Shown: one piece after another, positions 9,117 through 52,640 of the stretch
Layout of the letters: every line of letters starts with the position of its first letter
How positions within the stretch are numbered: the stretch's first letter is position 1
NCBI RefSeq assembly: GCF_039555335.1
Contig: NC_092630.1
Location: 85,690,148 to 85,754,147, forward strand
From: Amphiura filiformis
Lineage: Eukaryota; Echinodermata; Ophiuroidea; Amphilepidida; Amphiuridae
Direction: 5' to 3'
DNA: 64,000 nt
Program-made: the position numbers and the translations under genes
The notes under the pieces: model-generated
The model's input: only the letters and a program-made list of their open reading frames with translations
What the model was told of the DNA's origin: nothing
The model's database searches: none

Positions 9117-9208
9117 ATTCTGTCATATTCATATTCATATTCATATTCATATTCATATTCATATTCATATTCATATTCATATTCATATTCATATTCATAT
9201 TCATATAT
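9117..9208. repeat. Hexanucleotide microsatellite (ATTCAT)n
   Basis: About 15 nearly perfect copies of a 6-bp unit. It yields artificial Met-Asn or Tyr-Ser repeat frames on the two strands. It abuts the 5' truncation point of the LINE fragment. Confidence 0.97.
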
Positions 9209-12609: not shown

Positions 12610-13700
12610 TTTATCTTTATCAATAAATATATTGACCATGATAGCTATTATATTTTATTGATGACATTGGTGATATTGATATTGATAAAGTAGCTATATT
12701 ACTAGTGATAAAAATATTAATAACGAAGTAGCTGTACTGTATCTACTGTAGATATTGGTGTTGAGGAAGTGGCGATCTACTGCTGATATTGTTGTTGATA
12801 AAGTAGTGATCTACTACTGCTGATATTGATATTTATGAAGTAGCTCTCTACTGCTAATATTGGTATTGATGAAGTAGCTAATCTACTGCTGATATAGGTA
12901 TTGATGAAGTAGCTATCTACTGCTGATATAGGTATTGATGAAGTAGCCATCTACTGCTGATATTGATATTTGTGAAGTAGCCCTCTACTGCTAATATTGG
13001 TATTGATGAAATAACAACTACTGAGCATGCTGAGTGTATTGATTAAGCATGAAGGAATAATCTACGTACTGCAGATATTGGTATAGATGAAGTTGCTAAT
13101 CTACTGTTGATATTGGTGTTGACGAAGTTGCCATCTACTGCTGATATTGGTGTTGATAAAGTAGTGATCTACTGCTGATATTGATATTTATGAAGTAGCT
13201 CTCTACTGCTAATATTGGTACCGTATTGATGAAGTAGCTAATCTATACTGCTGATATAGGTATTGATGAAGTAGTTATCTATACTGCGGATATTGGTATT
13301 GATGCAGTAGCTATCTACTGCTGATATAGGTATTGATGAAGTAGCTATCTACTACTGATATTGGTATTGATGAAGTAGCTATCTAACTGCTGATATTGGT
13401 ATTGATGAAGTAGCTATTCTACTGCTGATATAGGTATTGATGAAGTAGATGTCTACTGCTGATATAGGTATTGATGAAGTAGCTCTCTACGGCTAATATT
13501 GGTATTGACGAAGTAGCTATCTACTGCTGATATTGGTATCGATGAAGTACCGGTAGCTATCTACTGCTGATATTGGTATTGATGAAGTAGCTAATATACT
13601 GCTGATATTGATGAAGTAGCATTCTACTGCTGATATTGGTATTGATGAAGTAGCCATCTACTTCAATATTGATATTGATGAAGAAGCTATGTACTAATGA
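12610..13700. repeat. ~34-bp minisatellite array, block 1
   Basis: Around 30 imperfect units built on GATATTGGTATTGATGAAG followed by TAGCTATCTACTGCT. Each unit holds a short palindrome, AGTAG-CTAT-CTACT. Unit length varies (30-40 bp) and all frames contain stops. The same family forms blocks at 18010-18478, 18713-20395 and 23315-23880. Confidence 0.95.
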
Positions 13701-14135
13701 TAAAATTGTCTTTATTTGTGGGGGGGGGGCTACTTTGGTAACCAGTCATGGGAAAAGGAGATTAGTGTTTTTGATGAAAAATGATGTAAGTAAAACGTTG
13801 ACATGGTTGAGCAAAGTTTTAGATTAGAATATTTATCTGGGATCTGTATGATACTTATTTGCTATTGCTACTCTTTATAGTAGAAATTCGTCATCATGGG
13901 ACGTATGCTGCAGATAAAGTAGCTCATTTTGATCACTGGCACATCCCTGTTTTGAATGTTCTCAAACTGGTAACATCTCCCTAAAATATATACATTTATA
14001 GCGCATTTTCGGATGATAGAATCCTAATAGATAATTCAAGTTGTAAACATGGTATAAAAGTCATTTGTCAAATGTGCTACCGGCAATGTTGAGGTTTGGT
14101 ATGAAAGTACATCTGCCATGCATGCATGTGGCCCG
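13701..14135. other. 3' flank of the SDR gene with a duplicated gene end
   Basis: A poly-G tract lies at 13721-13730. The block GCTACCGGCAATGTTGAGG at 14076-14094 repeats the last codons and stop region of the SDR gene (14135-14153) about 59 bp further on, so the end of the coding sequence has been locally duplicated. Confidence 0.6.
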
Positions 14136-14359: not shown

Positions 14360-17300
14360 CTGTAACAAATGCAATAAAACAAAAGAAATATATACAGTAA
14401 TGTCAAATTAGAAAATACATGCATTTGAAGAGAAAAAATCATCAGGAAAACAATTGAAACTTCTCGCGATTAAAGTAAAACTGATATCATTGCTGTTTTT
14501 CTTATGTTAATATTGTTATTTTAATTGTATATATATATTGTCGTTGTTTTGTGCTGTTGCTTGACTTAATAATTATTGTTATTATTTACAGGGTGAATAG
14601 ACACAAAAATATTAAACTTTCTCAATTAATATCTGCTGAGCCATCTTTCAAACTCATGCTGACGGTTTGCTTTATCAACTTATGGAACAAGAAAGTGTAG
14701 GTCTACTAAAGGAGCTCTAAGACGCTACCAAACATGGGTCCCTATTCACCCCTGTCCCTATTCACTCAGTTTTACGGTAGGCCTGCTCACTTTGATCAAT
14801 ACACTGTCTGCCGTATTCGACTCTCTGTCTCTGCGACATTCTGTTCCATACCATCTCTAGCTTTTCAGCAACCGTGTTTTCATTATTCATTTGAGTACGA
14901 AAATATCCTGGTTGTATGATATGAACAGAGATCGAATAGCTACGCATTTGTAGTCTACAGGATATGGAAATGAAAAGGAAAAAACAATCGTGTTAAAAGG
15001 GCATTATGAAATCAAACATCATGCTAAATCTTATAAGAAAATGTCGAGAGATGCCTGCTTCATTCTTAGTGAGTAAAAGTAATCTTAAGCATAATGTCAT
15101 CAATAGGCCTATTAGCAAGAGCAAATAAATCATCAAAAGTTAATAAAAGGGTATATGGTGTGGAATGAAGTCCAACCCTCTCCTTACATTAAACAACCTT
15201 CTAATAAGCTTCATTGCAGCGTAGATTCTTCCTATCAACAAACATGCGTATTAGATCTTGATAATTTCAACTACTATTATCATGAATTATACCTATTTTA
15301 TTCTTCAGTACATTGGGGTGGGGTTAGTAAACTAACCTTAAGCAATCTGAGAAGGCTTCCAGGCCACACTTAGCCATTTCGTATCCGCCAGAAGACAACG
15401 GCATCATGGCAATTCCACTGGACACATTGACAATACGACCTCTAGCTCTTTTCACCAATGGCAAGAACACATTGGTGACTTCAACAGGGCCTAGAAGGTT
15501 GACTTCTAATATTGAGCGGAAATCTTCCCTTGTCCACCAATCATAATAACCAGGGTTAACGGGAACACCGGCGTTGTTAACTAAACCCCATAAACCTTCT
15601 GAAAGACAGAGAAGGAACTAGACTTAGCTGTGGTCTAAGACCACGAACACAGCCGTGTTTTGACGCCTTAATGACCTTTGACCTCAAAATATATAAAACG
15701 CCCATAGACATTGGCTAATGTCAATGTATGGGTGCAAGTAGCACCACTTTGCTATGTTATTTGTGGCAGAAAGGGGCATTTTGAAGGTTTTTCGTCTCAG
15801 ACCGGAAATGACCCCTTAATGACCTTTGACCCCAAATGAAAAAATACCACATGTACAATAGGTAAACACAATTCACGTGTGAATATACCATCACCCTCCA
15901 ATGTTTTTCTTAGCAAATAACAAATTTTGAAGGTTTTTCGTTTTATACCGGAAGTGACCCCTTAATGACCTTTGATTCCAAATTTGTGAGGACCCCATAG
16001 ACACTGGGTAATTACAATGCATGTGTGCAAGTGGCGTCACTGTCATACGTAATTTGTGGAAGAAGAAGCATTTTAAAGGAATTTCGTTTTATACCGGAAG
16101 TAGCCCCTTAATGACCTTTGACCCTAAATGAAAAAATACCACAAATGCACAGAGTAACTACAATTTATTTGTGAACATACCGTTACTGTCCTATGTTTTT
16201 CTTAGCAAATAAATTTTTTGAAGGTTTTTCGTTTTATACCGGAAGTGACCCCTTAATGACCTTTGACCCCAAATCTGTGAGGACCCCATAGACACTGGCT
16301 AATAACAATGCATGTGTGCAAGTGGTGTCACTCTCCTACGTAATCTGTGAGAGAAGAAGCATTTTGAGTTGAAATCACGTTTTTGACCCCTATGACCCCT
16401 GTTTGACCTTTGACCCCACGAGTTTCATGTGACATGTAGGGGCATGGTCAATGATGGTTGTGACCAAGTTAGGTCAAAATCGGTGCAAGCATGTAAGTGC
16501 TAGAGCAAATGTAGTGGTCGGCAGAAAGAAGAAAGAACCTGTAAGAAAAAGACACAGCCGTGACTAACGTCACGGCTGTGTAACAAGCAAGATTACATTA
16601 GCAAGCAATGTGCTATATCATTACGTGTAATACTGTACTAAGAAAGGAAGTCGATTCAAGTTCCAGTTCGATATTCAGTCTCTATGTGAAAGAGTGAAAA
16701 ACAGCTAAAAAAGAGTGGGTTTTCCACTCCTCCTTGGAGCCGTATGAGTGACCACTCTTTTTAGAATGAAATTCGCTCTCCAAAAAGAGTGAATTCACCA
16801 TTAAGAAAAGAGTGAATAAAATCACACTTTTCTTTCTCACTCTTTTGGGAGAGTGAAATTCACTTTAAAAGGAGTGGTCACTCGTGCGGCTCCAAGCAGG
16901 AGTGGAAACCCTACTCTTTTGAGTTGTCACTACATGGCTCCAAAGAGGAGTGGACGAACCACTCCTTTGAATTTAATAGCTCTGCAATAAAGAAAATATA
17001 TACCTCAGTGGCAGTTTAAGTTGGATTAAGACGTTTCCTTTCTCTTGACCCAGAGGCAGACATTAAAAGTGTTCACTTGATTGTTGGGAATGGCCTTCTT
17101 TTACTTGATCTTTAGTCTTTAGTTCACCGTTTACACAAACAAACAAACAAACATTAACTTACTAACCTGCCTTGTCTGTAAGCAATTCATTTACAATATC
17201 AAACGCAGCCTTGATACTTTCACTTTTCGATACATCCATCGGGATGGTCAGAAGACGACCAGACGATGCATTCTTTAAGGTTTGTGCCCCTTCTGCCGTA

Positions 17301-18009: not shown

Positions 18010-18478
18010 AATAGAACATAGCTATCTACTGCATAGTGATATCAATATTGCATTAATAACAAAGTAACTATATCTATAATACTACTGATTAATGCATTGA
18101 CCAAGATCATGAGATAGCTATTTATTGATGACATTGGTGATATTGATATTGGTATTGATAAGGTAGCTATTATACTGGTGATAAAAATATTTATAACGAA
18201 GTAGCTATATCTACTGTTGATATTGGTGTTGACGAAGTAGTGATCTACTGCTGATATTGATATTTATGAAGTAGTTCTCTACTGCTAATATTGGTATTGA
18301 TGAAGTAGTCATCTACTGCTGATATTGGTATTGATGAAGTAGCTATCTACTGCTGATATTGGCATTGATGAAGTAGTCATCTACTGCTGATATTGGAATT
18401 GATGAAGTAGTCATCTACTGCTGATATTGGTATTGATGAAGAAGCTATCTACTATTGATATTGATGAAGTAGCTAATA
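18010..18478. repeat. ~34-bp minisatellite array, block 2a
   Basis: Same unit as the array at 12610-13700. It is interrupted at 18478 by an unrelated insert. Confidence 0.93.
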
Positions 18479-18712
18479 TAGAGGGTATACAATACGACTC
18501 TCATGACAGAGTCATCCCCATGTAAATAAAAGTCTGTCCTCCATAAGGTCCCACAGGGCAATTCGCATGATAGTAAAACAAAATAGGCGATAGGTATGAA
18601 TGGTTGTGGAATCGATCTAGAGACGTCATCTTAAGCTCTCTTAGAACTGTCGTCCGGCATGGCTGCCATTTCAATTGTTATACCGTTCCGATTGATTTAC
18701 TACATACACTCT
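18478..18712. mobile_element. Small insert within the minisatellite
   Basis: About 235 bp unlike the satellite. It begins TATAGAGGGTATACAATAC and ends, on the other strand, TATAGAGTGTATGTAG, weak inverted ends flanked by TA. Possibly a TA-targeting MITE. Confidence 0.5.
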
Positions 18713-20395
18713 ATACTGCTGATACTGGTATTGATGAAGTAACTATCTACTGCTGATACAGTTATTGATGAAGTAGTTATCTACTACTGATATTGGTATT
18801 GATGAAGTAGCTAATCTATTGCTGATATTGGTGTTGATGAAGTAGCTAATCTACTGCTGATATTGGTATTGATAAAGTAGCTATCTACTGTTGATATTGG
18901 AATTGATGAAATAGTCGCCTACTGTTGATATTGGTGTTGATTAAGTAGATATCTACTGTTGATATTGGTATTGATGAAGCAGCTATCTATTGCTGATATT
19001 GGTATTGATGAAGTAGCTATCTACTGCTGATACTGGTATTGATGAAGTAGCTAATCTACTGCTGATATTAGTATTGACGAGGTAGCTATCTACTGCTGAT
19101 ATTGGTATTGATGAAGTAGTCATCTACTACTGATATTGGTATTCATGAAGTAGCTATCTACTGCTGATATTGGTATTGACGAAGCAGCTATCTACTGCTG
19201 ATATTGGTTTTGATGAAGTAGCTAATCTACTGCTGATATTGGTATTGATGAAGTAGCTATCTACTGCTGATATTGTTATTGATGAAGTAGCTATGTACTA
19301 CTGATATTGGTATTGATGAAGTAGCTAATATACTGCTGATATTGGTATTGATGAAGTAGCTATGTACTGCTGATATTGGTATTGATGAAGTAGCTATCTA
19401 ATGCTGATATTGGTATTGATGTAATAGCTAATCTACTGCTGATATTGGTATTGATGAAGTAGCTATCTACTGCTGATATTGGTAGTATTGATGAATGAAG
19501 TAGCTGTCTACTACTGATATTGGTATTGATGAAGTAGCTAATCTACTGCTGATGGGTATTGATGAAGTAGGTATCTACTGCTGATATTGGTATTGATGAA
19601 GTAGGCATCTACTGCTGATATTTGTATTGATGAAATAGGTAATCTACTGCTGATATTGGTATTGATGAAGTAGCTATCTACTGCTGATATTGGTATTGAT
19701 GAAGTAGCCATCTACTGCTGATATTGGTATTGATGAAGTAGCTAATCTACTGCTGATGGGTATTGATGAAGCAGCTCTACTGCTGGTATTGGTATTGATG
19801 AAGTAGGTGTCTACTGCTGATATTGATATTGATGAAGTAGATAATCTACTGCTGATATTGGTATTGATGAAATAGCTATCTACTGCTGATATTGGTATTG
19901 ATTAAGTAGCTAATCTATTGCTGATATTGGTATTGATGAAGAGGTATCTACTGCTGATATTGGTATTGATGAAGTAGCTATCTACTGCTGATAATGGTTT
20001 TGATAAAGTACCTAATCTACTGCTGATATTGGTATTGATGAAGTAGCTAATATACTGCTGATTTTGGTATTGATGAAGTAGCTATCTACTGCTGATATTG
20101 GGTATTGATGATGTAGCTATCTACTGCTGATATTGGTATTGATGAAGTAGCTATCTACTGCTGATTGGTGTTGATGAAAAAGCTATCTACTGGCACTATT
20201 GATATTGGTATTGATGGCGTAGCTATACCCACGGCTGATATCGGTAGGCTAATGATGGGGTAGCTACCTATTGGGGTAGCTACCTACTGATATTGGTGTT
20301 GATATAGTAGCTGTCTACTGCTGATATCGGTGTTGATGAAGTATCAATCTACTGATGATATTGGTGTTGATGAAGTAGCTATTTACTGCTGATAT
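18713..20395. repeat. ~34-bp minisatellite array, block 2b
   Basis: The longest block, about 48 units with frequent small deletions. The last units degenerate towards 20395. Confidence 0.95.
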
Positions 20396-23314: not shown

Positions 23315-23880
23315 AAAATAGAGTCCACTGCTGATATTGGTGTTGATGAAGTAGCATTATAGAGAAGTTCTATACTGCTGATATTGGTGTTACTTTTAAG
23401 TAGCTTCCTACTGCTGATTTGGTTGAAGTAGCTATCTACTTCTGATATTGGTATTGATGAAGTAGTTATCTACTGCTGATATTGGTATTGATGGAAGTAG
23501 CTATCTACTGCTGATATTGGTTTGATGAAGTAGTTATCTACTGCTGAAATTGGAATTGATGAAGTAGCTATCTACTGCTGATATTGGTATTGATGAAGTA
23601 GTTATCTACTGCTGAAATTGGTATTGATGAAGTAGCTATCTACTGCTGAAATTGGTATTGATAAAATAACTATCTACTACAGATATGGATGAAGTATATA
23701 TTTACCGTTGAATATGGTGCTTATAAAGTAGCTACCTACTGCTGATTGAAATTGGTATTGATGAAGTAGCTACCCCTGCTGATATTGGTAGGCTATTGCT
23801 GGAGTAGCTACCTACTGCTGATACTGATGTTGATAAAGTAGCGATCTACTGCTGTTATTCTGATATTGGCGTTAACAAAG
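23315..23880. repeat. ~34-bp minisatellite array, block 3
   Basis: About 16 diverged units of the same family, including variants with GAAATTGGTATTGATGAAG. Confidence 0.93.
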
Positions 23881-27002: not shown

Positions 27003-27180
27003 TTATGTGTTCTGTAAGTCCTGTAGCACTGCTTCATCAGTAAGTAATATACTGTCCTTGGCATCAGGTGCATCTTCAGCTATAATTGGTGTAGAGCTTT
27101 CATCTCCTATCTTGTCATCATCATCATCTTCATCTAGCGCACAAAGAAGATTGTCATTCTCATAGGTAGGAAAGAAATAC
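27003..27180 (-). CDS. znf277: znf277 exon 9 (last)
   Basis: Codes residues 380-438 and ends TAA at 27005-27003. Starts with the conserved FFPTYEND block, then an acidic run of Asp. Acceptor TATGCAG. Confidence 0.95.
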
Positions 27181-30100
27181 CTGCATAGATCAAATAGAAA
27201 CAATTTGGCTTCAGATACAAGTATAAACTATTACATAGTACTATTTCAAAGAAATTCCAGAAAATTACTGACATTTTAAATGACTAATCCATGTTTCATA
27301 CACTCTTAGATAGTGAGAACCAATCAGAGCAAATGTTAGAAAAATGTGCACCATGCATGGGGGGGGGGGGTGCAATAAACCATCAACATCTCACCAGTAT
27401 GTGTGTGTATCATTCTGTACAATTTCACTCCTAACAAGAGATATTTATTAACCTATACATATGATCAGCTACAACAGGGAACAATGCACTCTGGTGGTGA
27501 GAATAGAAAAGTCTTCCACATACAAAATGTCTAAAATGTCAGATATTTTCTGCAGGACATAATTTGTTACTTTCAATACACTTATATCAGTCCCTTGGCA
27601 ATTAATTTTGATACCCCAAAACATTTTCACCTGACTGAAGTTTGTATAATCACATCATAAATGGTTAATTAACCTGCCTCAATACAAACATGATTTTATG
27701 CAATATATACTTACGATCAACATTTATTGCTGTGCAAACTGCACAGCTTATATGTGATGCGTTCAAGCAAAATCAGTCGGAACTCGGAAATATTAAATTT
27801 TCAGTTTCTTACAGGATAGTAAAAATTAGTAAACAACATTTACAAAGTGATTAAAGAGTTTAACTTCAACACTACACTATGATGCTCTAAATAAGGTCCA
27901 AAATTCTATCTTTCATGCAAAGACCCCACATTGACTGTGAGAGTCCCAGCCTTACCGCTGTATAGATTTAATTCACTCATAAGGAAGCCACAGATTTCTA
28001 TTACATATTCAAATAAAAATTGAGTGTCATGACAATTAACCAGGCCCCCCCCCTTTACTTTTCTTTACAGCTGCATTCAATATGTTTTCATGCAAGCAGT
28101 ACTTACTGGGGTTGATCCCATTCTGTTTTGTTTGGAAGTTGTTTGATGTGTTTTGTTGTTGTCATATGGTCTAATAGACTATGGATGTCATCACATTGCT
28201 GATCACAGCTTATGCAGCTTGTCTGGTGGATTCTTCTTCTGATATAGTTTACTAACTTCACTTGATGGTAGAAATTGAGACCTGTCAAGGAATACATAGA
28301 AAATACACACATAAAACATAACCCAAAGATGATTGCAGTAAAGACAAACAGACTTACGAAGGACATACAGACAACACAGTGTTGGGTAATGCTATTCTCT
28401 GGTGCATAGCTTACAAATGGCTTAACCTTGTACGTGGTTTTCTCTGTTTTCCTAGAATTAAGAGCATATATTTCTTTGCTTTTTTGTTTGTTTAACCAGT
28501 CGGTCAGGGTTAGGTTTGTAGTTGCTTCCTTGTATTATGTTTCTACTGCTTTAGCTTTCTACATCTCAAATTCATTAATTTTGGGGAACAGTCTATAATT
28601 TCAAGTTGCTTTTGTTTGCTATATTGTAGATCAATCAGGCTCACAGATCTGTGAGGTGGATAATAGTCTGTATGCCTTCCTTGAGGTAGTAATTTATATA
28701 TTGGTTTTTATTGTATTTCTAAAAGTAAGTATATAAAAGTACAAATTGATATGGTTTACACACCGAGTGCCACAACACTGTGTTTCATGCCCTGCAATCG
28801 TCAGGTGACTAAGCACAAATTTAAAACTACTTCTTTTTAACACGGCTTGCTGGCCTGTTGCCATGCCTACATTTACTTATTAACTCACTTCTTCTATTTA
28901 ACAGATCCTTTCCTTTGATACGTTTTTCACACAAAATTGTAAACTTCTCCTCCAAACACAAATTGCAAATCCCTGACTTTCTCTTGAAGGTATTTGATTT
29001 CTTAACAATTTCCCAATTGATTGCATAATCTACCTCATTCTCTTTCAATTTCCATACATACTTAGACAATTCAGTTTCTTTTCTGTATTTATCTGATCTG
29101 AATGACTTTGAGTGGTTGTTATACCTTTCTTTAAAAGTATTACCTGTAAGGCCTATATACTCTTTTGTTACATTTTGAGATTTCACAGTAGCCTTGTAAA
29201 CAACTGATTTACTCAAGCATTTCCCTTTTAAGGGGCAACTGTCCTTTTTCCTGCAGTTACACATTTTCTTAGGTGTTTTGCTTTCATTGCTTTTTGCTAA
29301 TGCGCGCATTATGGGATGTTATAACGCTGCGCATGTTTGGCATGCAACAGTAGCTGACCTTCATGCTATTACTGTTGAAGATTTTGTTCAACTTTGTACC
29401 TTTGGGGAAATGCTTTTTGATCAGCTTTATAAAAGCTCCCCCACATTGGTTTTCACATTCATACTATATGGTGGATTGAACCATATCACTTTTCTCTTTC
29501 TGTTTCTTTTGTTATTATTGCTTCTTTGTGTTGTTTACCTTTTGCTGAACTTGATTGCTTCTGTATATCCGCAAGATTTCAGAGCGTTGTTGTATTTGTC
29601 AGCTGCTGCATTGAATATCTCCTCATTTGAAGACAAGTTGGAAACTCTTTTTCCAATAAAAGTATGTATTTTCAGAATGAATATGATGCAAGGAAAACAA
29701 CTGGCATAACAAAATAATTCAAAAATGAAGAGTTTTTGAGGAAATCACTAAATTTGATTTTACTTTACTGCCTCAAGGAAGGCATGCAGACTATAATCTT
29801 AGGTAATTTTGATTTCCTATTCCCTTTTGTAACCTAGAGACAAACAAATGAGTGAAAATAATGGTAATAATTTGACCTATATACAAAACATTGAATGCTT
29901 AAGCTTCTACCAAGTCTGTGAAATTTGTACTTATATTCCATGCAAACTAAGTAATTTCTAAACATTTACCAAATATTGAAATTAAACTTTTATTCCCAGC
30001 AAGGACAATGTAAAGGATTAATTATTCAGCGCTAATGCAAAATTTATTTATTTCACATTTTTAAATCTTGTGAAATAAGTGTTATGCTATATTTCTTTAG

Positions 30101-33100
30101 AATAGAAATTAGGTTACATTTTCCTCATAATCTCCTTGTTACTAACCTTCCTTCATCTGATCTAGATCAAAGTTGTGCTGCTTTGTCATATGAGTTTTCA
30201 GTTTGTTCACAGTTGGAGATGACATAGAACAGAATAAGCACACAGCACTGGCACCTGTCTCATCCTCCTCCCAGTCCTGCCATTCACTGTAACACAAAAC
30301 ACACAGAACAGAATAAGCACACATCACTGGCACCTGACGTCTCATCCTCCTCCCAGACCTGCCATTCACTGTAACACAAAACACATAGAACAGAATAAGC
30401 ACACATCACTGGCACCTGTCTCATCCTCCTCCCAGTCCTGCCATTCACTGTACCAGAAAACACACAGAACAGAATAAGCACACATCACTGGCACCTGTCT
30501 CATCCTCCTCCCAGTCCTGCCATTCACTGTAACACAAAACACATAGAACAGGCAAGCACACATCACTGGCACCTGTCTCATCCTCCTCCCAGTCCTGCCA
30601 TTCACTGTAACACAAAACACATAGAACAGAATAAGCACACAGCACTGGCACCTGTCTCATCCTCCTCCCAGTCCTGCCATTCACTGTAACACAAAACACA
30701 CAGAACAGAATAAGCACACAGCACAGGCACCTGATGTCTAATCCTCCTCCCAGTCCTGCCATTCACTGTAACACAAAACACATAGAACAGAATAAGCACA
30801 CAGCACTGGCACCTGTCTCATCCTCCTCCCAGTCCTGCCATTCACTGTAACACAAAACACATAGAACAGAATAAGCACACATCACTGGCACCTGTCGCAT
30901 CCTCCTCCCAGTCCTGCCATTCACTGTAATACAAAACACACAGAACAGAATAAGCACACATCACAGGCACCTGATGTCGCATCCTCCTCCCAGTCCTGCC
31001 ATTCACTGTAATACAAAACACACAGAACAGAATAAGCACACATCACTGGCTACTGACTTCTCATCCTCCACCCAGTCCTGCCATTCACTGTAACACAAAA
31101 CACACAGAACAGAATAAGCACACAGCACAGCACCTGACATCTCATCCTCCTCCCAGTCCTGCCATTCACTGTAACACAAAACACACAGAACAGAATAAGC
31201 ACACAGCACTGGCTACTGACGTCTCATCCTCCTCCCAGTCCTGCCATTCACTGTAACACAAAACACACAGAACAGAATAAGCACACAGCACAGGCTACCC
31301 TGACGTCTCATCCTCCTCCCAGTCCTGCCATTCACTGTAACACAAAACACACAGAACAGAATAAGCACACAGCACTGAATACTGACGTCTCACCCTCCTC
31401 CCTGTCCTGCCATTCACTGTAACACAAAACACACAGAACAGAATAAGCACACAGCACTGGCACCTGCATCTCCTCCTCCCAGTCCTGCCATTCACTGTAA
31501 CAGAAAACACACAGAACAGAATAAGCACACAGCACTGAATACTGACGTCTCACCCTCCTCCCTGTCCTGCCATTCACTGTAACAGAAAACACACAGAACA
31601 GAATAAGCACACAGCACTGGCACCTGATGTCTCATCCTCCTCCCAGTCCTGCCATTCACTGTAACACAAAACACACAGAACAGAATAAGCACACAGCACA
31701 GGCACCTGATGTCTCATCCTCCTCCCAGTCCTGCCATTCACTGTAACACAAAACACACAGAACAGAATAAGCACACATCACTGGCTACTGACGTCTCATC
31801 CTCCTCCCAGTCCTGCCATTCACTGTAACACAAAAACACAGAACAGAATAAGCACACAGCACAGGCACCTGATGTCGCATCCTCCTCCCAGTCCTGCCAT
31901 TCACTGTAACACAAAACACACAGAACAGAATAAGCACACAGCACAGCACCTGACATCTCATCCTCCTCCCAGTCCTGCCATTCACTGTACCAGAAAACAC
32001 ACAGAACAGAATAAGCACACAGCACAGGCACCTGATGTCTCATCCTCCTCCCAGTCCTGCCATTCACAGTAACACAAAACACACAGAATAGATTAAGCAC
32101 ACAGGTTAGGATCACTACACCTTATAAATCATTTAGCATCATTTAGAGGTGTAGCTTTATACAGGCACAGTATCCTAATCAGCCACCAAATGAATAACCA
32201 TCACAGCCAGGATCAGCTCTCCGTGTTTCGTACTGGTAGACCACGAGAAAACTAGCAGTAAGTTCCTTGTCCAGAGGAAATTCAAACTAGCTTTGAAAGG
32301 ACTGAAATTCCAACAATGCGGGGACTCAAACTTGTACCATCTCGCACCTTACCAATTGTGCTAACAGGACTGTTATGTATAAATACAGTGTATAGTGTAT
32401 CTATTCTCTAGTAGATAGTAACACCATGTTGTATTTCACAGTGGCAGATTCGAATTGCGCATGCTAACCTAATCTCATGGGGTGTATACACACTCATAAA
32501 AGGGTGATTTGCTCATAAACTGGCAATGCAACAGTGTGAACTCACTGATTCGAATCTTCCATTGCAAAATCCAACATGACGTTACTCTCAACTTCAGACA
32601 AGACGCACTAATATGAGAGTATACAAGGATCTTACTCATTCTCTTCATCAGAGTTATTCCTAGAGTCTTTCTCCCTTTCAGATTGTGCCACCTGCCAGTT
32701 CCTGCCCAGTTCTAGATAATTGATGACATAAAATCTATCATACAGTCTGTTCTTTGGGTTCAGGCGCTTGTGGGATTTCTTACGCATGTGTTCTTTTAAC
32801 GTTGGTCTATCTTTGAATGTTCTCTCACAAAATAAGCATTTTAAACTGAAAAGAGAAGAAAAAACAAAAATGGGCATGGTTACTGTTACACAACAACAAT
32901 TAGCAACATTGTATTGTCATTCAATTATGATGATTGAAATTTCAATTGGAAACTTGTCACAATAGACCAATAATATTTAGATAATTCACAGGGAATCAAT
33001 CTATGCAAATTTCAGTTTGCATAGCAAGTTTATTATAGTTTATTTTGATTAATTTCTCATGACTACAATTTTTCGTATGTCTAAGTATGCTAAATTCAGC

Positions 33101-36100
33101 AGAATCAGGAAGGCCTATTATTATTATAACATGAAGCTTTTAGCTATACCACACATTTTCTATACTACAAAGTAATACTGTGCAAGATATTTTGATACTG
33201 AATGCCGCAAACATTTGCGTTGGTGTACGAAACTCATAGCGCATTACGCGGAATACATAATCGTGTGGAGAGACCAAAGCAGGCGTAATTGATTAAGTTA
33301 AGCAGTTTGTTGTTTTGTACCGCCAGCAACCATGATGAAAATGATTACGCTAACAACTGGTTTCCAAATGGCACCAACATGTTTATTTTGATACTTTGGC
33401 ACTCAAAAAGCATAGAAAAACTTCATATTATATAATAATAATATTAGATGGCTTTTTTTGCGTGAAACTTGAATCTACCGCACTCAAAGTCATAAAAATA
33501 CCAAACCTGACCTTTGTACTCGTTTGGTATTTTCATGGCTTGTGCGGTATTTTCTCGTATAACACTCAAAGCCGTCAAATATTCTCTTTATTAAGTTGAT
33601 ACATAACCAAGTATACACAAATAACCATTTTGATTAATAACTAGTTTTAATAACAAGTTTTACAAAAAATAATAATGTCTGATTTCCAGAAGCCTTGTCA
33701 TACTAAAAAAATATTTCTTTTTTCCAAAACAGGATAAAAAATTTCAGGCACCTTTTTACAGACAAGGGAGGGTTTCAAGAAACCAAAATAATTTTATTTC
33801 CACCTTGGAATAGGCTGCATAGATATATGACAAATTCTAAATAAAATCAGGATCAAACAGTGACAATCTTGATTTGCATTCTTTCTTGTCTGTTCTCATG
33901 GTGTCGACAAATTGTCTGTCATTGTCATGTGACTTTAGTATTCAATAGTGTAAGTGTTAACTGAATGAAATGATACTGATCCTGAATTTTTTGGGTAGTG
34001 TACTTCATACATTTCAAAATCAAGTGACCTGTTATTGCCAACAATTGCCTATGAATGCGAGTATCACATGTGACATGACTTACCTATTTAGCACTTCTTC
34101 AATAATGTCCAGAAACTCTTTTGTAAACACTGAAAAGTGTAAAACAAGATATCTGCAATGAGACATTATGCTCAGGATTTATGCATCAGTAACTTTCTTG
34201 ATTTTTAACATACCAAACAAGGTCAGAACACTGTTTTAACATATCTGCACTCTTAACAATTTAAACAGAACAAATCTGGTTTACCATTGTTACTGCCTGT
34301 GTTCTACATTTTGGGTGTGGAGGTGGGGTGGGTTGACCAATGTTGGAAAACCTGAAAGCCTGGGTAAGAAATTTCACAGTGTACACATTTTATAGTAATC
34401 TTATCTTTATCCTTTTTACAAAACATGACAACGCTTGGTAAAAAGCCAGAAGGACAAAGGTGCATAATGATAACGAAGCACTAGTACTTGAGACCCCCAC
34501 TTGAAACCTTCTTGCATAAAACAACTGCAATGAATCTCTCAGTGCCAGCTCTTGGCAAAATCAGTAGGAAACCAGTCTTGATCTTCTTCCACTATCATCC
34601 AGAAGGGAACTCAGTGATCTTGGCTTTTTTCATAGATGCAAGTTGGGGCAATTTGATTTAGATGTAGATAAGTTTGTTGTTTTTAAAAGTAAAAACCAAC
34701 AGAACCATCCCACCACTAGGCTCTCTGCAGATCCTCTTATGTTATCTTTTCAGAGGTGTAAGACTGAATCCCATAAACAATCATACTTCAACTGCATTGT
34801 TCCCTTGTGGAACCAGCTGCCTCTGGAAACCAGATTATCCAATTCCATTTCTTCTTTCAAATATCAAGCTCTGGATTTTTTGAAGTCTCAATTTTATTCC
34901 AAATTTGTTCCTTCTGATACCTGCACTTGGTTTTCTACTTGCTGATGCCCTAATTGTAGGCCCATTTAAGGTCTTGCCCCTGGCATTCCATTCTTTTTTC
35001 CAAATTATTTAGGTCTTTCCTAGGTGGGATGGTTCTAAAGGTGAATTTACACCTGTTTATCCCAGCCTATTCGCTGGTCTTTTAACATGTTTTTTTTTTA
35101 AAAAGCTTTTATATTTTTCAAAATTTGGATGTACAATAATTTTATATGTACCAGTGATGAAGTCTAATAAATAAATAAATAAATAAACCATATTTTGTGT
35201 GTAAAAAACCACCATTCTGAGTGACAAGCCCTGCATATGAGACTGAAACCAATTGTCTCATTAAATAATATAATATACAAGACACAGCCAGTTTCATATT
35301 ACATGTAGCTGTGCTACATCACATCCAGCATGGCTATAATCTTTTGCAGAGTCCTTTTTAAGTGTTATAGTCTTCGCCTGAACATGTGTTACATCAAGTG
35401 TGTGCATAGGACCTTGTGCAATACATGATGGATGGTTGGTATGCTTAATTTGTAAAAGGAATGAGGCAAAACATTATATAACCAGCACTTTGTACAGTAT
35501 ACCCTACATACAAAGGTACAAGAAGCTACTCACCTAGATCATCTGGTTTGCCAATACTAAAGTGATGATCAAATGCCATGTGATCTATCAATGCAGCTCT
35601 ATTGCCTTCAAAATAATGGCTACAAAATAGACACGACCGGGAAAAACTTGTGTCAATCCTTTCCTTTTGTTGAGCTTCTAGAATTACTTGTAAACGTTTA
35701 CGTTGAAGATATTCTCTGATTTGCTTGTCTTCTTCCAGTGCATCAGAAAGCAAGAAATATTTCCTCTTTTGCCCTGTAACTGGGGTGAAATAAAAAAAAT
35801 AATGTCCATACAATTAGTACAGGTGCATCAATATGACAGTGATTTATGGTGCTCTAACTTAACACAATCTCAGTGGGCAATGTGACATGGCCTTAGTGGG
35901 ACATGGACCAAGTGGGACATGGCCCTAGTGGGACATGGAACAATTGTGACATGGCCCTAGTGGGATTGGACAAAGTGGTATTGGACCAAATGGGATTAGA
36001 CCAAGTGGGAACTGGACCAACTGGGAATGGACCAAGTGGCATTGGACCAAATGGGATTGGAATAAGTGGGATTGGACCAAGTGGGAGTAAACCATTATAC

Positions 36101-39100
36101 CTGTAATTTTTTTGCATGGTAGAACTGCTAGCCATCAATTTTTAAATAGCTACACATTCATCAGTATCGCTATTTTCATGCAAAATGATTACATAAAATA
36201 TATAGTGACTTAATACCAGAAGTTTGAATCACAACCTACATTGGGCTATTCCAGATGAAACCCTATGGAAGACATGACCTTAATCTCCCACACAAGGAGT
36301 GTGAATTACAAATGGGGTTACATGAATGGGTGACTCCATTTGAAATCTACATCCCAAGAGTGGGAGATTAAGGTCATGTCTTCCATTGGGGATGTACATG
36401 TATATGGGTTTCAACTGGATAACCTGTTGTATCAAATTTATAGGCTTGGTAATTCACCAGGCCATCAAAGAATGTATATAGTTAATGATACAGAAATACT
36501 TGAATTGCAACATGTATACTATGCATTGATGACAGTTTGCTGCACATCATGCTTGAGTCACATTTTGTAATGTGAAACAAGATGCTTCAAATGCTAGCTA
36601 AGGTCAATGCTGGACCAAGATAAGCTGCTGGTCTTGTAAAGATGGAACACAAGATAAGAAGTCTTTTGTTACATACCACTATCCTCTTTACGTATTGTTG
36701 AACAGAATTCCTTCAGTGGCTCTTGGGCAAAGCGCTTCTTCCAATACTCAATGTACCTGAATAGAAAAAAAGATATCAAACACATATAAATGTTAATAAT
36801 CAATAAAAAGTAGGTGGTTCTATTTCTTCCTTACATGGAGGCCTATCACCAAAAGAAATTAATTCCAAATTCTGAGTAAATAGCTCCAATGGATATGTGC
36901 ATTGCAATAGCCCATAGAATGGTACAGGTATACGGTATACCACCACAGGGTGATTATAAAGCTTTCATACATACATGATATGTAACGGCGCGCGTGATTG
37001 GTCGAGAGCCGGGCATAAACAGCGTTTATGCCCGGTGGCCCGGATGTGCGATCACGGGGTAGGGAAAACGAAGGAAATTTACGGTTTTTAATGATGTTAC
37101 TTGTCATTTTTTGTTATTATTTTGATGAAATAAGAATCACAAAATGTTCTGGTATGTGGTATGTATGAACGGGTTAATTCATATATTTTCATGACTAAAC
37201 GGTTGTTTATGCCCTCGGGCATAAACAACCGTTTAGTCATGAAAATATATGAATGAACCCCTAAATCATTATTTTGTAGGAAACTTAGCTCAGGCCAACT
37301 TTGATGGTGATCAAAATAATTGTATGAGCTTTCTTCAGGTGTCAAAATCTCACTTTTGATGGGACTGCCATTCAGGACATCTACCTTAACCTGACAATAA
37401 TTTAAGCATATGAACGACTGTACACTACAAACAGGTGGAATTCAAATTGGTAGGTTCTTTTTTGTTTTGTTTTAAACATGCAAGTTTGAATCCCCAATTA
37501 ACTCACTTTCATGTTCATCTGAACAATATGCAAACAAAACAAACAGACAAAAAAATCGAATTCAAGCAAACAAATGCACTTACTCTCTAAAATTGCAAAT
37601 GAGATTTACATCAGCAATTATCAGTTTATGTTCAATCTGGATATGTTTTAATATTTCTTCCTTTCCCTGTGACAGATCTAAATTGAGTGAGCATAACATG
37701 CAACCAACACAGTCAGAATCTTCATTGGGGATTTGCTGATTGGCTTTCTCTTCTGGAAATGCTAGAACTTCCAAAATGCTGTCATGTTTGGTTGTGCCAT
37801 GTGCCTGAGGAGCTGTGATGGAAAACATTAAAATTCATAATGATATTAGTAACAATTAAAGCCATAATGTACGATCTTATAATATGAAATTGGTTAATTT
37901 TTTTCAAACCTGATTTTTTTGCATTTGTGTAATGTTTACACATGTCACAACTTGCACCTAAATGGAATCGGCCAAATTTGTTGTCTTTGTAGGTCAACAG
38001 AGCAAAGTTCGACATATTATCATAATTTAAAAATTATGATAATATGTCCTCCCATAGAACTGCATGGTAAATGACCAAAATAACCAGTGGGGTTTCTTTC
38101 ACTTGTTGGGAAACTTGGCATATACATGTGTACTTGTATAAGCATTTACAAAAACTCAATGTGACATTAAATTTACCACATTCCCACATTTCATCTACCA
38201 AATTTTTGCATGAATGCTACCAATTTGGTTTAAGGTTAATTTTAGTAAGAGCGGGCCTTTCATAATTCTTAATTATAATTATACATGTAGTTTGCACACA
38301 ATTTTTTTTATCAACATTGGTTAAAACTTTTTGACCCCCCCATAATGCCCAATCCCGCTACCAAAGTACATGTATTTATGAACACTCCCTTAGGGGCTGT
38401 GCAATAATTATGGGGCCCCCCCCCCCCCCCGGAGGTAAACTTTCAAACACCTCGCCAATAATCGCTTGCCCCCTCCTCTCGGCCCACCAAAAATCGCTTG
38501 CTCCCCCCCCCCTCTCGGACCGCCAAAAATTTTTTCCCCCCCCCCCTTGCACATGCCAAATTTTTGGGATCCCAATTTGCAACTCTTATTATGGTCTATA
38601 TGTTGTGAGCGCAGCGAGCAGGAAAATTTGCATATTTAAGCGTTTCGGTACGGTTTTCCTAAGCCTTTTTTAGAGAGTTTAATTTTAAAAGGCACCCCAA
38701 GAATATGTGCCAAAATCACTTGCCCCCCCCTTTCGACTTGCCAAAAATTTCTTGCCCCCCCAATTTTACCTCCCCCAGCCTAAAGGGCTCATAATTATTG
38801 CACAGCCCCTTAAAATCCCAGGTGTCTCAAGCGACATAAATATTTCCATAAATAAGCTTTATCAGCTAGCAGCTTATAATTTATCATAGCCAATTCAGTC
38901 CCAAAGAAATACAGATTAATGTCAGCAATTGAATTTTGCATAAGGACTGAGTCCCGGACTGATTACGCAGTCTAGCAATATGGGGATGGCAATCACTCAG
39001 ACTGTGACTACATGGATCGAATCCATGGGTTCCTACAGTCACCCATGGAAAACAGGGTACTGAAAACCAGTACACAATGTTCATATGGGCCATGAGTTAG

Positions 39101-47395: not shown

Positions 47396-48550
47396 TCCTC
47401 CTTGGTTTCTAGATGAGATAGACGTGTGGATTTTTCTTTACCAACGCAAAGTATCATTACGAACCAAAGGACGAGATATACAGTTTGTTTGTTACACCTG
47501 AGGTAAAAACCAACCAGTATAGTACGCTAGGGAGATAGTTTTGACGACATTTTTCGCTAGAAAAGTGACAAAAAACGATCCAAAAACTTAGCTTGTATGA
47601 GTGTTTCCGTTCAGATATCACGGAACACACGTTTCAAAATAATAGCCCTTAGGACGCCATTTTATTTTTGTTCTCACGTAAAACAACTATAGCAGACTAG
47701 TAAGTTACAATAGATGTTTGTACAGTACTGTGTATACATGTATGGTGAGTGATTATCGCTATGTTTATGGTGTGCTCTATCGTTATATCTTTCAGTACGC
47801 GTCTGATGACGAGTTACTGCTAAGAGTTCGGTGGGTTTCCGAAGGGACCAGCCTGACAAATCTATACCAAAAGGTTTTCAGTTTTTCATCCCTTTGTACA
47901 TATATTTTTATATCATACCACTACATCAGCGTCAGCCACTGTGCGTGTGGGTCTGTTTATTGGGCTTGAGCTTGTGTTCGGGGGGGTAGTGCTGTACGCT
48001 CCCCGATTACTACAATGTCCAGGCCTTGTCAATCATGCCCTTCCCTTGTGGCAGAGTGGGACCCGCATCCACTCTGCTACACCCACAGGGATTGCTCTAA
48101 ATCAAATAAGTGTGCTTCCTTTTGCATAGGCTTATCGGACATCCACTTGAGGATTTAGAAAGTAGCGCTTCGCTTGGGTCTTCGACACAGACAGAAAACG
48201 AAGACTAAGAAACAGAAGCCTACAGGTAAGATTGATATGGTAGGTACTAGCGCCGGCCGGCAAGGGCCACGCTAAGGTAACCTCTGGGGCTCCGGTCCCG
48301 GCAAGCAGGCGGACCCTCCGGGACTGCTAGCGAGCCCGAAGGCCTAGCAGCCAGCGAAAGCACTGACTTAACGTCTAAGCTAGTAGCAGGCAGCAGGGCG
48401 GTACTTGCCCTAACAGGCGAGTACCAGTCTACCAGTGAGATCTCTAGCGAGTTTCTTGCAGGTGGACACCCGTCTATTGCTGGCGAACGAGCGGGTCTAG
48501 CACCCGCGGAAGTAGCCGGCGACGGACAGTATGCCAAGGGTACCCCGGGC

Positions 48551-50957
48551 TTGCCTGGGTTGAATCCTAGCATACAGCGTGCGAACGGACCTCCGGGCTT
48601 GCCTCGGCCGGTCTGTAGCACGCAGCGTGCCAGTGGACCCCCGGGCTTGCCTGGGTTGATCCACGGCACGCAGCACGCCTTTCGTTCCCCGCAAGGGTCG
48701 AATGAAAACGTGCATGGGTTTAGCAGAGACGATACCGGGGCTAACGCTTGGTGTAGTCTTAGCAGAACCAACTGGGGTTGTCACACGGCAGCGTTCCATG
48801 GCGGGACCGCCAAGTGATGCCCTGGGCCTTGGAATGGCTGCCGGCTGTCCTCCGGGACTGGCTAGCGGCTATACCGGGGGTGGGCTCGCAGTCTCTCACG
48901 GGACAGCGACCCAAGTGCAAACGGTGGCAGCTACCGAGACGAGCTACGGCTCGACTTCAGTGGTAGCCACTATGCACGCGCCCATAGCTGCCGTGAGTGG
49001 TCCGCCACACACAGCGACCTTGGGTGAGGCTCAAGAGGTTAGGGTAGGTAGTTTGAACAGCCTGGCTGATCAACAACCCACTTATGTCCTCGAGAGCCAG
49101 CAGAGCGTGGGTGATCCATTACAGTCAATGGGTCGATTACCTCTTATGATCGATCACTATCTATTCAGCGGAGCATGGCTCCATTGATTGATACTGCCTA
49201 TTCAGGTAGCGAGGTGACTGATCGAGGGTATACACGCTCAGCTACCCGTGATACTAGGCAAGCTCCTTTTAGCCAAGGGACAGCCAGTATAGCGGGGTAC
49301 CCATACACGCGGCTTGATCCTCTAGCGGGGAACGCTGTGAGGCATGGGTACAGCGGTACGCGGTCGGGAGGCCTACCGGGCACCTACGCTACAACCACGC
49401 AGGTACCGCAGTACTGCGTCCTGGTTACCACAGTCTCTGTGGCAACAGGGGAGGCGGTACTGGTACTACCGCTCCATGGGGTTTCCCTGGTGGCGGATCC
49501 TTTCAGGGTCAGCTACCGACAGGGTATGCCCGTGGTATCCGCCGCAGGGTGGTTTCTTCCACGGTCTCAGCACCGTGGCAAGTGCCGCCCTAGCGATGGG
49601 CAAGCAGTACCACCAGCGGTTACCCAGGCTGGGCGGCGAGTGGCTAACCCTGATACAGCTCAGGGTAGGCCGCACGCTGCTATGGCTAGGGCGACAGCAG
49701 CGAGAGCGTGCGGATCCCGGGGTGCTATGGCTAGCATCTCGGGGTCTAGCGGGCGTACTCCCTCTTCTGCTGGTGTTCAGTTGGCTAGCCACACGGTGGC
49801 GACACCTCCCTGTCCACCTTCAGATGCCCGTCGTCAGATCTCTTCCTCATCAGAGAGTGAGTCAGAGTCTGAAGGCGAGGGAAAGGAGTCGGAAGATGAA
49901 ACCAGTAGCGACTCACAGTCTGATGAGGCTGTGCAGGTAGCTTCAGGTATCCTTCCCCGCTGCCCGTGAGGAACTCGCTAGCAATGGTCTGCCTGCGGAC
50001 ACCGCTGAGGTGATGAGCCGTGTGGCCCAAGGTTTGGGCCTGGCTTTCTCTCAGGAGGAGTCCGTTCAGGAGGACCAGGGCATCCTTTCAGTAGGATGCC
50101 CAGCTAGCGCGTCCACACAAGGGTCGCCCGCACTTGCATTCCCGGCGGACCTCAAGGGTAGGTTTCAGTGGGCTGTCAGGCTCGCTGGAGCTTGACGCCC
50201 GGCGTGCACGCTTCCACTGCGTGTTTCGCAGGAGGACTACTGAAACCTACCTCAGGGTCCCTGACATGGATCCAGACGCGTTGCCGCGCCTGCCGCTAGC
50301 GGCCAAGGCGCGCGGTCGTTCTCCCCCAGTGGGAGGAGGAGCTAAAGCTCATCGATAAGCGAGCACGCTCGCTTATCAGAGTCTCTAGCGTCGCTACCAC
50401 GCTTGCCGAGCACCTCGGTAGGAAGGTAGCGAACGACCACGGGCAACGTCGAACTCTTCCTTGAGGTTAATCTGTTAGCGGTGCTAACAGCTAACCTCAA
50501 CGAGAGTTCTATGGGCCTAGCCCGTAGGATGTCAGCTCGCCGCCGGGAGAATGCCGGTCTGTCCCTCCAGTCAACTTACGGCTCCGACTTTGCTGAAGCA
50601 ATGAAGAAGTCAGACTCGGTGGGACAGGGGCTACTCTTTGGACAGGCCTTTTGCGCTCCGGTAGAGGACCGGGCAAAGAAGGCCACCAATGAGAGCACTC
50701 TGAAGAAGTCAGAGGCTGCCCTGACCAAGGGGAAGGGCAGTAAGGCGAAGAAGAAGCACAAGAAGAAGAAGTCTTCTAAGCGTTCTTCAGCGCCAGCTCC
50801 GGCTTCAGCAGGACGCGCACCACAGACTACACCCGAGCCCGAGGCTACTCCAGCACCTCCCAAGAAAACTGGGAAGCGCAAGAGGAGTGCTGGACCGCAT
50901 GGCAAGCCCCCTAAGAAGAGCCGCTCTTCGAAGGGTGGCAAACCAGATCGGTCCTGA
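48551..50957 (+). pseudogene. DIRS gag-like ORF (frameshifted)
   Basis: Open segments in shifting frames: 48702-49187, 49175-49969, 50010-50195, 50134-50358 and 50481-50957. Features in order: a Gly/Ala/Thr-rich N-terminal part, an acidic serine stretch (SSSESESESEGEGKESEDE, about 49840-49910), VPDMDPDALPRLPL (about 50260), a helical part with LARRMSARRRENAGLSL, and a very Lys-rich tail (50740-50950) that may bind nucleic acid. No CCHC knuckle. Function is inferred from position ahead of RT and from its charge pattern. Confidence 0.7.
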
Positions 50958-51099
50958 GGGCACGGGCGGTCGACAGTCCATGCCGGCAGGTTTGGACTTC
51001 CACAGGGATTCCCCTGTGGGCGGCCGCTGTGCATTACACGCCCAGAGATGGCATGCCATCTCACCGGGCGCCTGGGTATTGTCAGTGGTCAGTGGGGTT

Positions 51100-51775
51100 A
51101 CAGGCTGGAATTTACCAGCCACCCTCATGCGCCTGCACGATTCAGAGGTCCACGGTAGTGCCGCCAGACGCCCCCAGCGTCGGGCACTACTGTCAGAGGT
51201 CACTCAGCTTCTCACGGCAAGCGATTGTCCCGGTCTACCCCCCTTTCACCAAGGGGTTTTGGAGCACGTTTTTCTGGCTCCAAAGAAGACCGGCGACTGG
51301 AGGCCATTCTGAACCTCAAGCCGTTGAACGAGTTCCCCAGGCCCCAGAGGTTCAGAATGGAGACTCTCGCTGCGGTGCTAGCCTGCCCCATCAAGGGTAT
51401 GTGGGCGGCATCGCTAGATCTCTCGGACGCATATCTGCATGTTCCGATCGCACCTCAAGATCAGAGGTTTCTACGCTTCAAGGTACAGGGTCAAACTTAC
51501 CAGTTTCGATGCCTGCCATTCGGCTTGTCCACCTCCCCCAGAGTGTTTACACTCCTGGTCAGGGCGGTGGCAGCGTACCTGAAGCGCAGGGGAGTCAACA
51601 TGTGTTGCTACCTGGACGATTGGTTCATTTACGGACGCACCCGCTGGAGACACAGTGTCTCGTGGAGTTAGTAGTCCGTGCGGTGCGGGACCTGGGATTT
51701 CTGATCAACGTCCAAGAAATCCAATTTGGTCCCGACGCGAGACACCACTATTCTTAGGGGCCCAGATCAACCTCA
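51100..51775 (+). pseudogene. DIRS reverse transcriptase domain (frameshifted)
   Basis: Main open part 51225-51671: LNLKPLNEFPR, then SLDLSDAYLHVPIAPQDQRF (motif A aspartates), LPFGLSTSPRVFT (motif B), CCYLDDWFI (motif C, YLDD at about 51609-51620). The upstream part (VFLAPKKTGDWRPF) is in another frame up to about 51310, and the downstream part (LVVRAVRDLGFLIN) in another after about 51643. The wording LPFGLSTSPRVF and YLDDW is characteristic of DIRS/Ngaro RTs. It would copy element RNA into DNA without an integrase. Confidence 0.92.
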
Positions 51776-52640
51776 AGGAGGGATCGCGGCGCCCTCACCC
51801 GAGAGGGTGACGAACATGGCGAGTGTGCCCGACTCTTGGCCGAGTCAGAGGGGGCACCCGCTGTGGCATGGATGAAGGTTTTGGGCCTTATGGCCAGTAT
51901 GGTAGACCTCGTACCGTACTGCCGCTTTCACATGAGGCCTATACAACTACACCTTCTAGCCTTTTACAGGCCCAGTCGTCACCCAATATCCCTCGCGTTC
52001 CGATGTCGGAGATCGCGCGAGAGGAACTCTGGTGGTGGACCCATCAGCCCAATTTGACTCAAGGTGTCAGGTTTCCTGCACCAGCGGTGCGTCACGTAGT
52101 GACGACCGACGCGTCAAAGCTGGGCTGGGGGCCACATCCACGGGACTCAGTCTCGGGCCTATGGTCGGCCACGGAGACGGAGTTCCATATCAACCTTCTC
52201 GAACTTTGGGCAGTGGAGAGAACTCTCCAGCATTTCGAGAAGGTGATCGTGGGATCTCATATCGTTGTCCAAACAGACAACACAACCGTGGTGGCCTACC
52301 TCAACAGACAAGGGGCACCAGGTCACCACGGTTATGCCTGCACGCACTTCGCCTGATAGGGTGGTGCAAGGCCAGGCAGATTACGTTGAGAGCGATGCAC
52401 ATAGCGGGAGTCACCAACATCCTCGCGGACGATCTGTCACGAGGAAAGGTGTCGGGACCTACAGAATGGTCCCTTGCTCCGCAGGTCGCCCAGACGATCT
52501 TCGAGGTGATGTACCACCCCTCGATAGATTTGTTCGCATCTCATCGAAATCATCAGCTGCCGGTATTGCTCAAGGGTCGCAGACCCACAGGCATTCGCCG
52601 TGGGCGCTCTGTCCGTGAGACTGGGGAGGAATGACTGCTT
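51776..52640 (+). pseudogene. DIRS RNase H domain and linker
   Basis: In the open frame 51823-52356, TTDASKLGWG (D at about 52108), HINLLELWAVE (E at about 52201) and VVQTDNTTVVAYLNRQG (D at about 52276) form the RNase H D-E-D set. Downstream, in another frame, HIAGVTNILADDLSRG gives the final acidic motif, followed by HPSIDLFASHRNHQLP, a conserved DIRS segment. At least two frame breaks. Confidence 0.9.

Follow-up and report, generated by a model that had tools for sequence, protein, structure and literature searches.

A mirage-type minisatellite with 22 copies of an exon start ahead of the genuine exon 7 of a znf277-like gene

The original description of the Adh mirage is reportedly that of Canestro 2002, and a title by Turri 1995 is said to be the one cited for the minisatellite of IFI6 (6-16). 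Mirage minisatellites are described in lancelets for the globin genes BflGb6 and BflGb9, for Adh3 and for TnC (PMC3087553) as well as for PGBD5 (PMC3902484). The repeat unit consists of the 3' end of an intron and the 5' part of an exon, the units share 81-100% identity, and the copy number differs between haplotypes (PMC3087553, PMC3902484). Copy numbers of 6 and 3 are given for BflGb6, and of 2 or 7 and 3 or 6 for PGBD5 (PMC3087553, PMC3902484). In the available parts of both papers the authors infer that regular splicing is undisturbed, and RT-PCR results are read in this sense (PMC3087553, PMC3902484). The cDNA of BflGb6 is listed there as partial (PMC3087553), and the mirages of Adh and TnC are stated to generate no aberrant mRNAs (PMC3902484). 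The mirage hosts in the literature examined, as far as its available text goes, are cephalochordates only.

Repeats carrying splice sites are also known from human genes, here summarized from the accessible sections of the respective papers. Intron 7 of F7 contains 37-bp repeats that carry the donor, and under normal conditions splicing uses solely the most upstream of these (PMC6627357). In the VNTR of ABCA7 intron 18 a splice donor stands at the start of every 25-bp unit. A longer VNTR goes along with lower expression, an effect of VNTR length on decay was not seen, and one splice form keeps one VNTR unit, which leads to a premature stop (PMC5954066). For IFI6 (6-16) the repeat units of the minisatellite are reported to be alternative splice sites (PMC4526556). 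No other acceptor-side array was recognized among the literature matches listed, which were available as titles and beginnings of abstracts and included few subscription papers; the cases found were donor-side only.

The window of 64,000 nucleotides of DNA analyzed here carries a znf277-like gene on its minus strand. Seven stretches homologous to human ZNF277 were found by tblastn, using a provisional human sequence as the query (Table 1). Exons 6 and 7 and intron 6 are provisionally numbered as in an earlier note on this DNA, here referred to as the original prediction. The Pfam family zf-C2H2_2 was recognized on three ORFs holding znf277 exons, in one case below the cut-off of Pfam. Exon 6 is contained in the tblastn stretch 32910-32446, and its ORF matches zf-C2H2_2 with an E value of 3.2e-08. 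For exon 7 the identity to the provisional human query was 51% (E 2.9e-09). The junction of both exons (32636/30286) is in frame, and conserved exons are located on both sides of the array. The exons examined have ordinary flanking donors and acceptors, and a TAA stop codon was found by eye at 27005-27003. The gene model is without its start-codon exon; judged from the sequence, the gene looks intact from the exon at 37.8 kb to the stop.

Two minus-strand features were seen in introns of this gene. A tRNA-derived SINE-like stretch is located in intron 6 (32240-32372), in which we assume the look of a box A and a box B. ARAGORN, run with the bacterial-code setting, called no tRNA in the window including this stretch, and no Rfam family reached its gathering score in the window. 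The intron after exon 7 contains an ORF of 163 aa (28827-29318) with a cysteine-rich start. It matched no Pfam family and no relative in viral_contigs, and presumably resembles the end of a GIY-YIG retroelement.

Table 1. Positions of the znf277-like gene, the repeat array and its splice sites within the window
Feature	Position	Strand	Remarks
znf277 gene, as far as found	27003..37801	-	tblastn, Pfam, sequence
znf277 homologous stretches	37801-37586, 36758-36690, 35771-35535, 32910-32446, 30285-30151, 28282-28112, 27194-27072	-	tblastn
znf277 exon 6	32636..32845	-	finger KCLFC..., ends ...GAATGA; donor GTAAG from 32635
Genuine exon 7 (140 nt)	30147..30286	-	acceptor at 30286, donor GTTAGT from 30146; encodes EWQDWEEDETGASAVCLFC...
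Mirage array	30222..32104	-	partial unit 32104-32067 at 5' edge, 22 exon 7-start copies, runs into exon 7
5'-most acceptor position, dead	32067..32068	-	TG instead of AG; reads TTACTG before exon-like start 32066
21 live decoy acceptors ACAG/TGAATGG	30368..31986	-	exon-like starts found by unit listing
First exon-like bases of decoys, first half	31984, 31903, 31822, 31740, 31658, 31576, 31494, 31416, 31334, 31250, 31168	-	
First exon-like bases of decoys, second half	31087, 31005, 30923, 30844, 30765, 30683, 30604, 30526, 30447, 30368	-	
Unit 7 candidate donor AGGAGG/GTGAGA	31546..31576	-	first G 31553, score 8.36
Unit 9 candidate donor AGGAGG/GTGAGA (same)	31386..31416	-	first G 31393, score 8.36

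The array was detected by TRF with a period of 82, 23.3 copies and 92% matches. The exon 7 start sequence TGAATGGCAGG occurs 23 times; the last occurrence (30286) is the real exon 7 and 22 copies lie ahead of it. Each unit of 78-84 nt is composed of the start of exon 7 and the last nucleotides of the intron. By eye, the 79-nt type holds 65 nt of the exon 7 start, leaving 14 nt of the intron end. Eleven units measure 82 nt, five 79 nt, three 81 nt, two 78 nt and one 84 nt. The AG is kept in 21 of the 22 copies, here named live decoys. The unit thus spans an intron-exon boundary, the real boundary marks the array's edge while the remaining copies are intronic, and the close likeness of the units bears signs of concerted turnover. 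This is the composition that characterizes mirage minisatellites.

These data bear out the predicted unit of ~81 bp, made of intron end, AG and exon 7 start, as well as the statement that only the last acceptor gives the full finger, since copy 23 alone continues into the full exon. About 22 decoy acceptors had been proposed; the number holds for the copies, whereas the 5'-most of them (32066) is no acceptor. An array was rightly placed at 30147..32105, but its TRF span is 30222-32104 and the bases 30147-30286 are the real exon 7.

Homology at the left edge of the array starts at 32104. An older, decayed unit was considered there and rejected, as beyond the 38 nt of the partial unit (32104-32067) the similarity to three unit types did not exceed that of shuffles (p 0.175, 0.146 and 0.067). 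Upstream of the dead copy start (32066) the candidate branch points CCTAAC and CTTAAT are found at a distance of 40 and 27 nt, respectively. The lost AG sits in the 5'-most copy beside CCTAAC, to which we gave no weight; the loss in one of 22 copies is neither for nor against selection. The string GGCAGGACTGGGAGG may resemble the Jeffreys minisatellite core.

Splice sites were scored with matrices of approximate human-site frequencies, which are not trained on this organism. The real exon 7 acceptor scored 7.03. Fourteen of the 21 live decoys scored equally, two reached 7.18, three 8.74-8.75 and two 5.96, so that by this approximate matrix 19 of 21 were at least as strong as the real site. The latter is unremarkable beside the other znf277 acceptors, of which four were scored (7.33, 7.59, 12.05 for exon 6, and for a further exon 7.46 or 6.23, depending on which of two alternative sites is taken; the sites near 36.7 and 37.8 kb were left out). 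The pyrimidine fraction of its tract is lower than that of exon 6 (0.67 vs 0.95). In agreement with the original prediction, the decoys derive from the exon edge of the gene itself and are transcribed before the real exon; in local sequence they are equal or close to the real acceptor. As they score much like the real site, local sequence does not mark out the real acceptor; position and downstream context must do so. RNA folding of 30300-30700 as a means of hiding decoys was weak (z -2.0, 4 of 100 shuffles as good), and owing to the likeness of the units it does not distinguish decoys from the real site.

Over a scanned length of 60 nt the heptamer TGCTTAT was the sole candidate branch point of the yUnAy type, located 27-28 nt before the exon start. 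It precedes the real acceptor and 20 of the 21 live decoys; decoy 20 has no candidate within 60 nt. In units 16 and 18 (79 nt) the match to the opening 62 nt of exon 7 is perfect. Because the exon part of the unit is a copy of exon 7, the TGCTTAT candidate and the upper tract before nearly all acceptors, including the real one, are copied zinc-finger codons. That the T-rich, exon-derived end of one unit is the tract of the next acceptor had been recognized before, and this relation extends to the candidate branch point. The term self-feeding, which had been used for the expansion, is apt as a description, but nothing here shows the tract to drive the expansion. The candidate donors in units 7 and 9 score higher than the donors of exon 6 (4.08) and exon 7 (7.84) and lower than the znf277 donor at 35533 (10.77).

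When read through, all 21 live decoys meet a stop located 140-1594 nt ahead of the exon 7 end. The resulting exons would measure 222-1838 nt, compared to the 140 nt of the real exon 7. An acceptor-made TGA is the stop for 19 decoys, at the next acceptor in 14 and one or two units further on in five, and an internal TAG for two (in units 10 and 17). The original prediction had put a TGA in frame at the next acceptor by means of units of 79 or 82 nt, i.e. of 1 modulo 3. This length rule applies to 16 of the 22 units, whereas six are 0 modulo 3 and none is 2 modulo 3; the next-acceptor TGA was right for the 14 decoys, and the other seven stop nevertheless. As a rule, a transcript is subject to nonsense-mediated decay when its stop precedes the next junction by more than ~55 nt. 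Under this rule the stops of all 21 decoys lie far enough from the exon 7 end for decay. Cassettes from a decoy acceptor to an internal donor (score at least 5, a single cassette each) were also joined to the real exon 7, and 49 of 49 carried a stop before the exon 7 end. Mixed intron/exon repeats can be reasoned to give stops often by default, so the universal stops are weak evidence and no sign of design.

Compared with the 62 nt that open exon 7, the 22 units had identities of 0.846 to 1.0. Identical pairs are u02/u12 and u16/u18, near twins (0.988) are u07/u09 and u04/u11. Such non-adjacent twins are as expected from repeated exchange. A gradient of identity toward exon 7 across the units was not significant (rho 0.37, p 0.089). 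Variable alignment columns were concentrated mid-unit (16 of 25), compared to 3 of 22 in the exon start and 8 of 37 in branch point, tract and AG, and this clustering was significant (p 0.0012; densest 25 columns vs shuffled columns). It could be due to constraint on the splice signals, which would speak for a function of the decoys. Alternatively, a mutation bias via mid-unit CpG-like changes (GACGTC/GACATC/GATGTC) may be the cause.

Further repeats are present in the window. One 34-bp unit (such as TACTGCTGATATTGGTATTGATGAAGTAGCTATC) is common to three separate arrays (12741-13702, 18144-20395 and 23373-23859), which therefore form a minisatellite family dispersed over the region; a 23-base piece of the unit had no exact match in viral_contigs. 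A 146/291-bp array (15661-16365) is located in an intron of an SDR gene (adh_short) and ends ~62 nt before the exon, so that the acceptor is approached and not copied. A solved relative of the SDR-like protein is named DHRS9. Identical ORFs of 101 aa on the plus strand at 124-429 and 5167-5472 point to a repeated element by their presence in two places. A perfect (TCATAT)14 microsatellite is found at 9123-9206. The plus-strand region 48281-53866 is a probable mobile element with an RVT_1 reverse transcriptase (E 2.5e-16, ORF 51159-51671) among other long ORFs, and may be DIRS-like. Two repeat patterns and two mobile-element proteins had no relative in viral_contigs, nor had one pattern in genome_contigs. 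Scans with short patterns gave four and five stretches that matched the pattern and then failed tblastn.

Based on these results we consider it probable that the locus is a mirage minisatellite at the intron 6/exon 7 boundary, grown by slippage or unequal exchange, with the last acceptor in use and the array mostly silent. The anatomy is observed directly, and from it we infer the route of growth. The array would have started from the intron end and the first ~65 nt of exon 7. Nearly all units contain an AG, a T/G-rich tract and the branch-point-like TGCTTAT, the latter two largely from the CLFC zinc-finger codons, so that the real acceptor now relies in part on sequence copied from exon 7. 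The spliceosome most likely picks the acceptor adjoining the exon 7 donor by exon definition, i.e. the real acceptor would be chosen because it is nearest to this donor. Use of a decoy would result in an early stop and decay, and would be a leak at most; with its products removed, the array would stay mostly silent and cost at most some transcript. The published lancelet cases have the same anatomy, and their RT-PCR, read as regular splicing, argues for silence by analogy, as does the F7 precedent. On the other side, the decoys are of roughly the same local quality as the real site and transcribed first, and the role of exon definition is a proposal. The clustered mid-unit variation and the strong donor candidates of units 7 and 9 might also speak against silence, and the lancelet precedent draws on a partial BflGb6 cDNA.

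A poison-splicing model, in which exon 6 is sometimes joined to a decoy, the acceptor-made TGA leads to decay and the array length sets the znf277 mRNA level, appears unlikely. The stop met by every live decoy 140 nt or more ahead of the end of exon 7, the acceptor scores of 19 of 21 decoys and the lower expression with longer ABCA7 VNTRs (PMC5954066) would fit it. However, such stops are expected by default on read-through of intron-like repeats, the available texts report or infer lancelet mirages to be without splicing disturbance, the F7 repeats are silent in normal splicing, and the ABCA7 authors saw no influence of length on decay (PMC5954066). A rheostat, with early decoys capturing exon 6 co-transcriptionally in competition with the last acceptor, and rapid gain and loss of copies, perhaps somatic too, tuning the mRNA, has a similarly low probability. 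A regulatory reading may hold, but nothing other than the anatomy supports it; precedent leans against it, and ABCA7 might leave some room for it. That the array is inflated or mis-joined in the assembly, the true allele having few copies, is quite unlikely. One lancelet mirage was apparently assembled aberrantly in the draft genome (PMC3087553), and the PGBD5 array lengths differ between two sequence versions (PMC3902484). Here, in contrast, the units differ from each other, and exact repeats within the array reach 121 nt at most, which is less than the length of two units. The copies are therefore not a stuttered block and show none of the duplicated multi-unit stretches expected after a crude assembly duplication, although the exact copy number is provisional. 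We regard it as very unlikely that the array provides a new intron or exon, in which a unit acceptor and the internal donor of units 7 and 9 (GGAGG/GTGAGA) delimit a cassette exon. The scores of these donors and the model proposed for intron gain in lancelet globin (PMC3087553) are in its favor, yet none of the 49 cassettes is free of stops.

The probable mirage minisatellite is known in kind and unusual in extent, as it would be the largest mirage array among the cases with an available copy number. Like the lancelet mirages, as described in the accessible texts, it consists of tandem units across an intron-exon boundary, many of them with a usable AG/GT. It differs in having 22 copies before the real exon instead of the 2-7 of BflGb6 and PGBD5, and in being known from DNA alone. 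With F7 it shares repeats that copy a splice site beside its exon, and downstream copies in F7 are stated to be able to act as cryptic sites. In F7, however, the donor is copied and the copy in use is known, whereas the znf277 unit repeats the acceptor, with the donor of exon 7 (GTTAGT at 30146) lying outside the array. ABCA7 is likewise a donor-side case, and in the available parts of its report the unit is not described as exon-derived. IFI6 differs by its donor side and by extra sites that are said to be really used (PMC4526556). With branch point, tract, AG and exon start nearly constant, the sites of the znf277 array differ only in where they lie and in how far away the downstream donor is. 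Its 22 near-identical acceptors of working type (21 decoys and the real one) would therefore allow a clean test of the choice that the spliceosome makes among equal sites. Silent decoys would strongly support exon definition, and active ones would indicate an expression switch controlled by copy number. The array is also relevant to the role of mirages in supplying new introns. Should the host be other than a lancelet, mirages would occur more widely than known so far and would be no peculiarity of cephalochordates.
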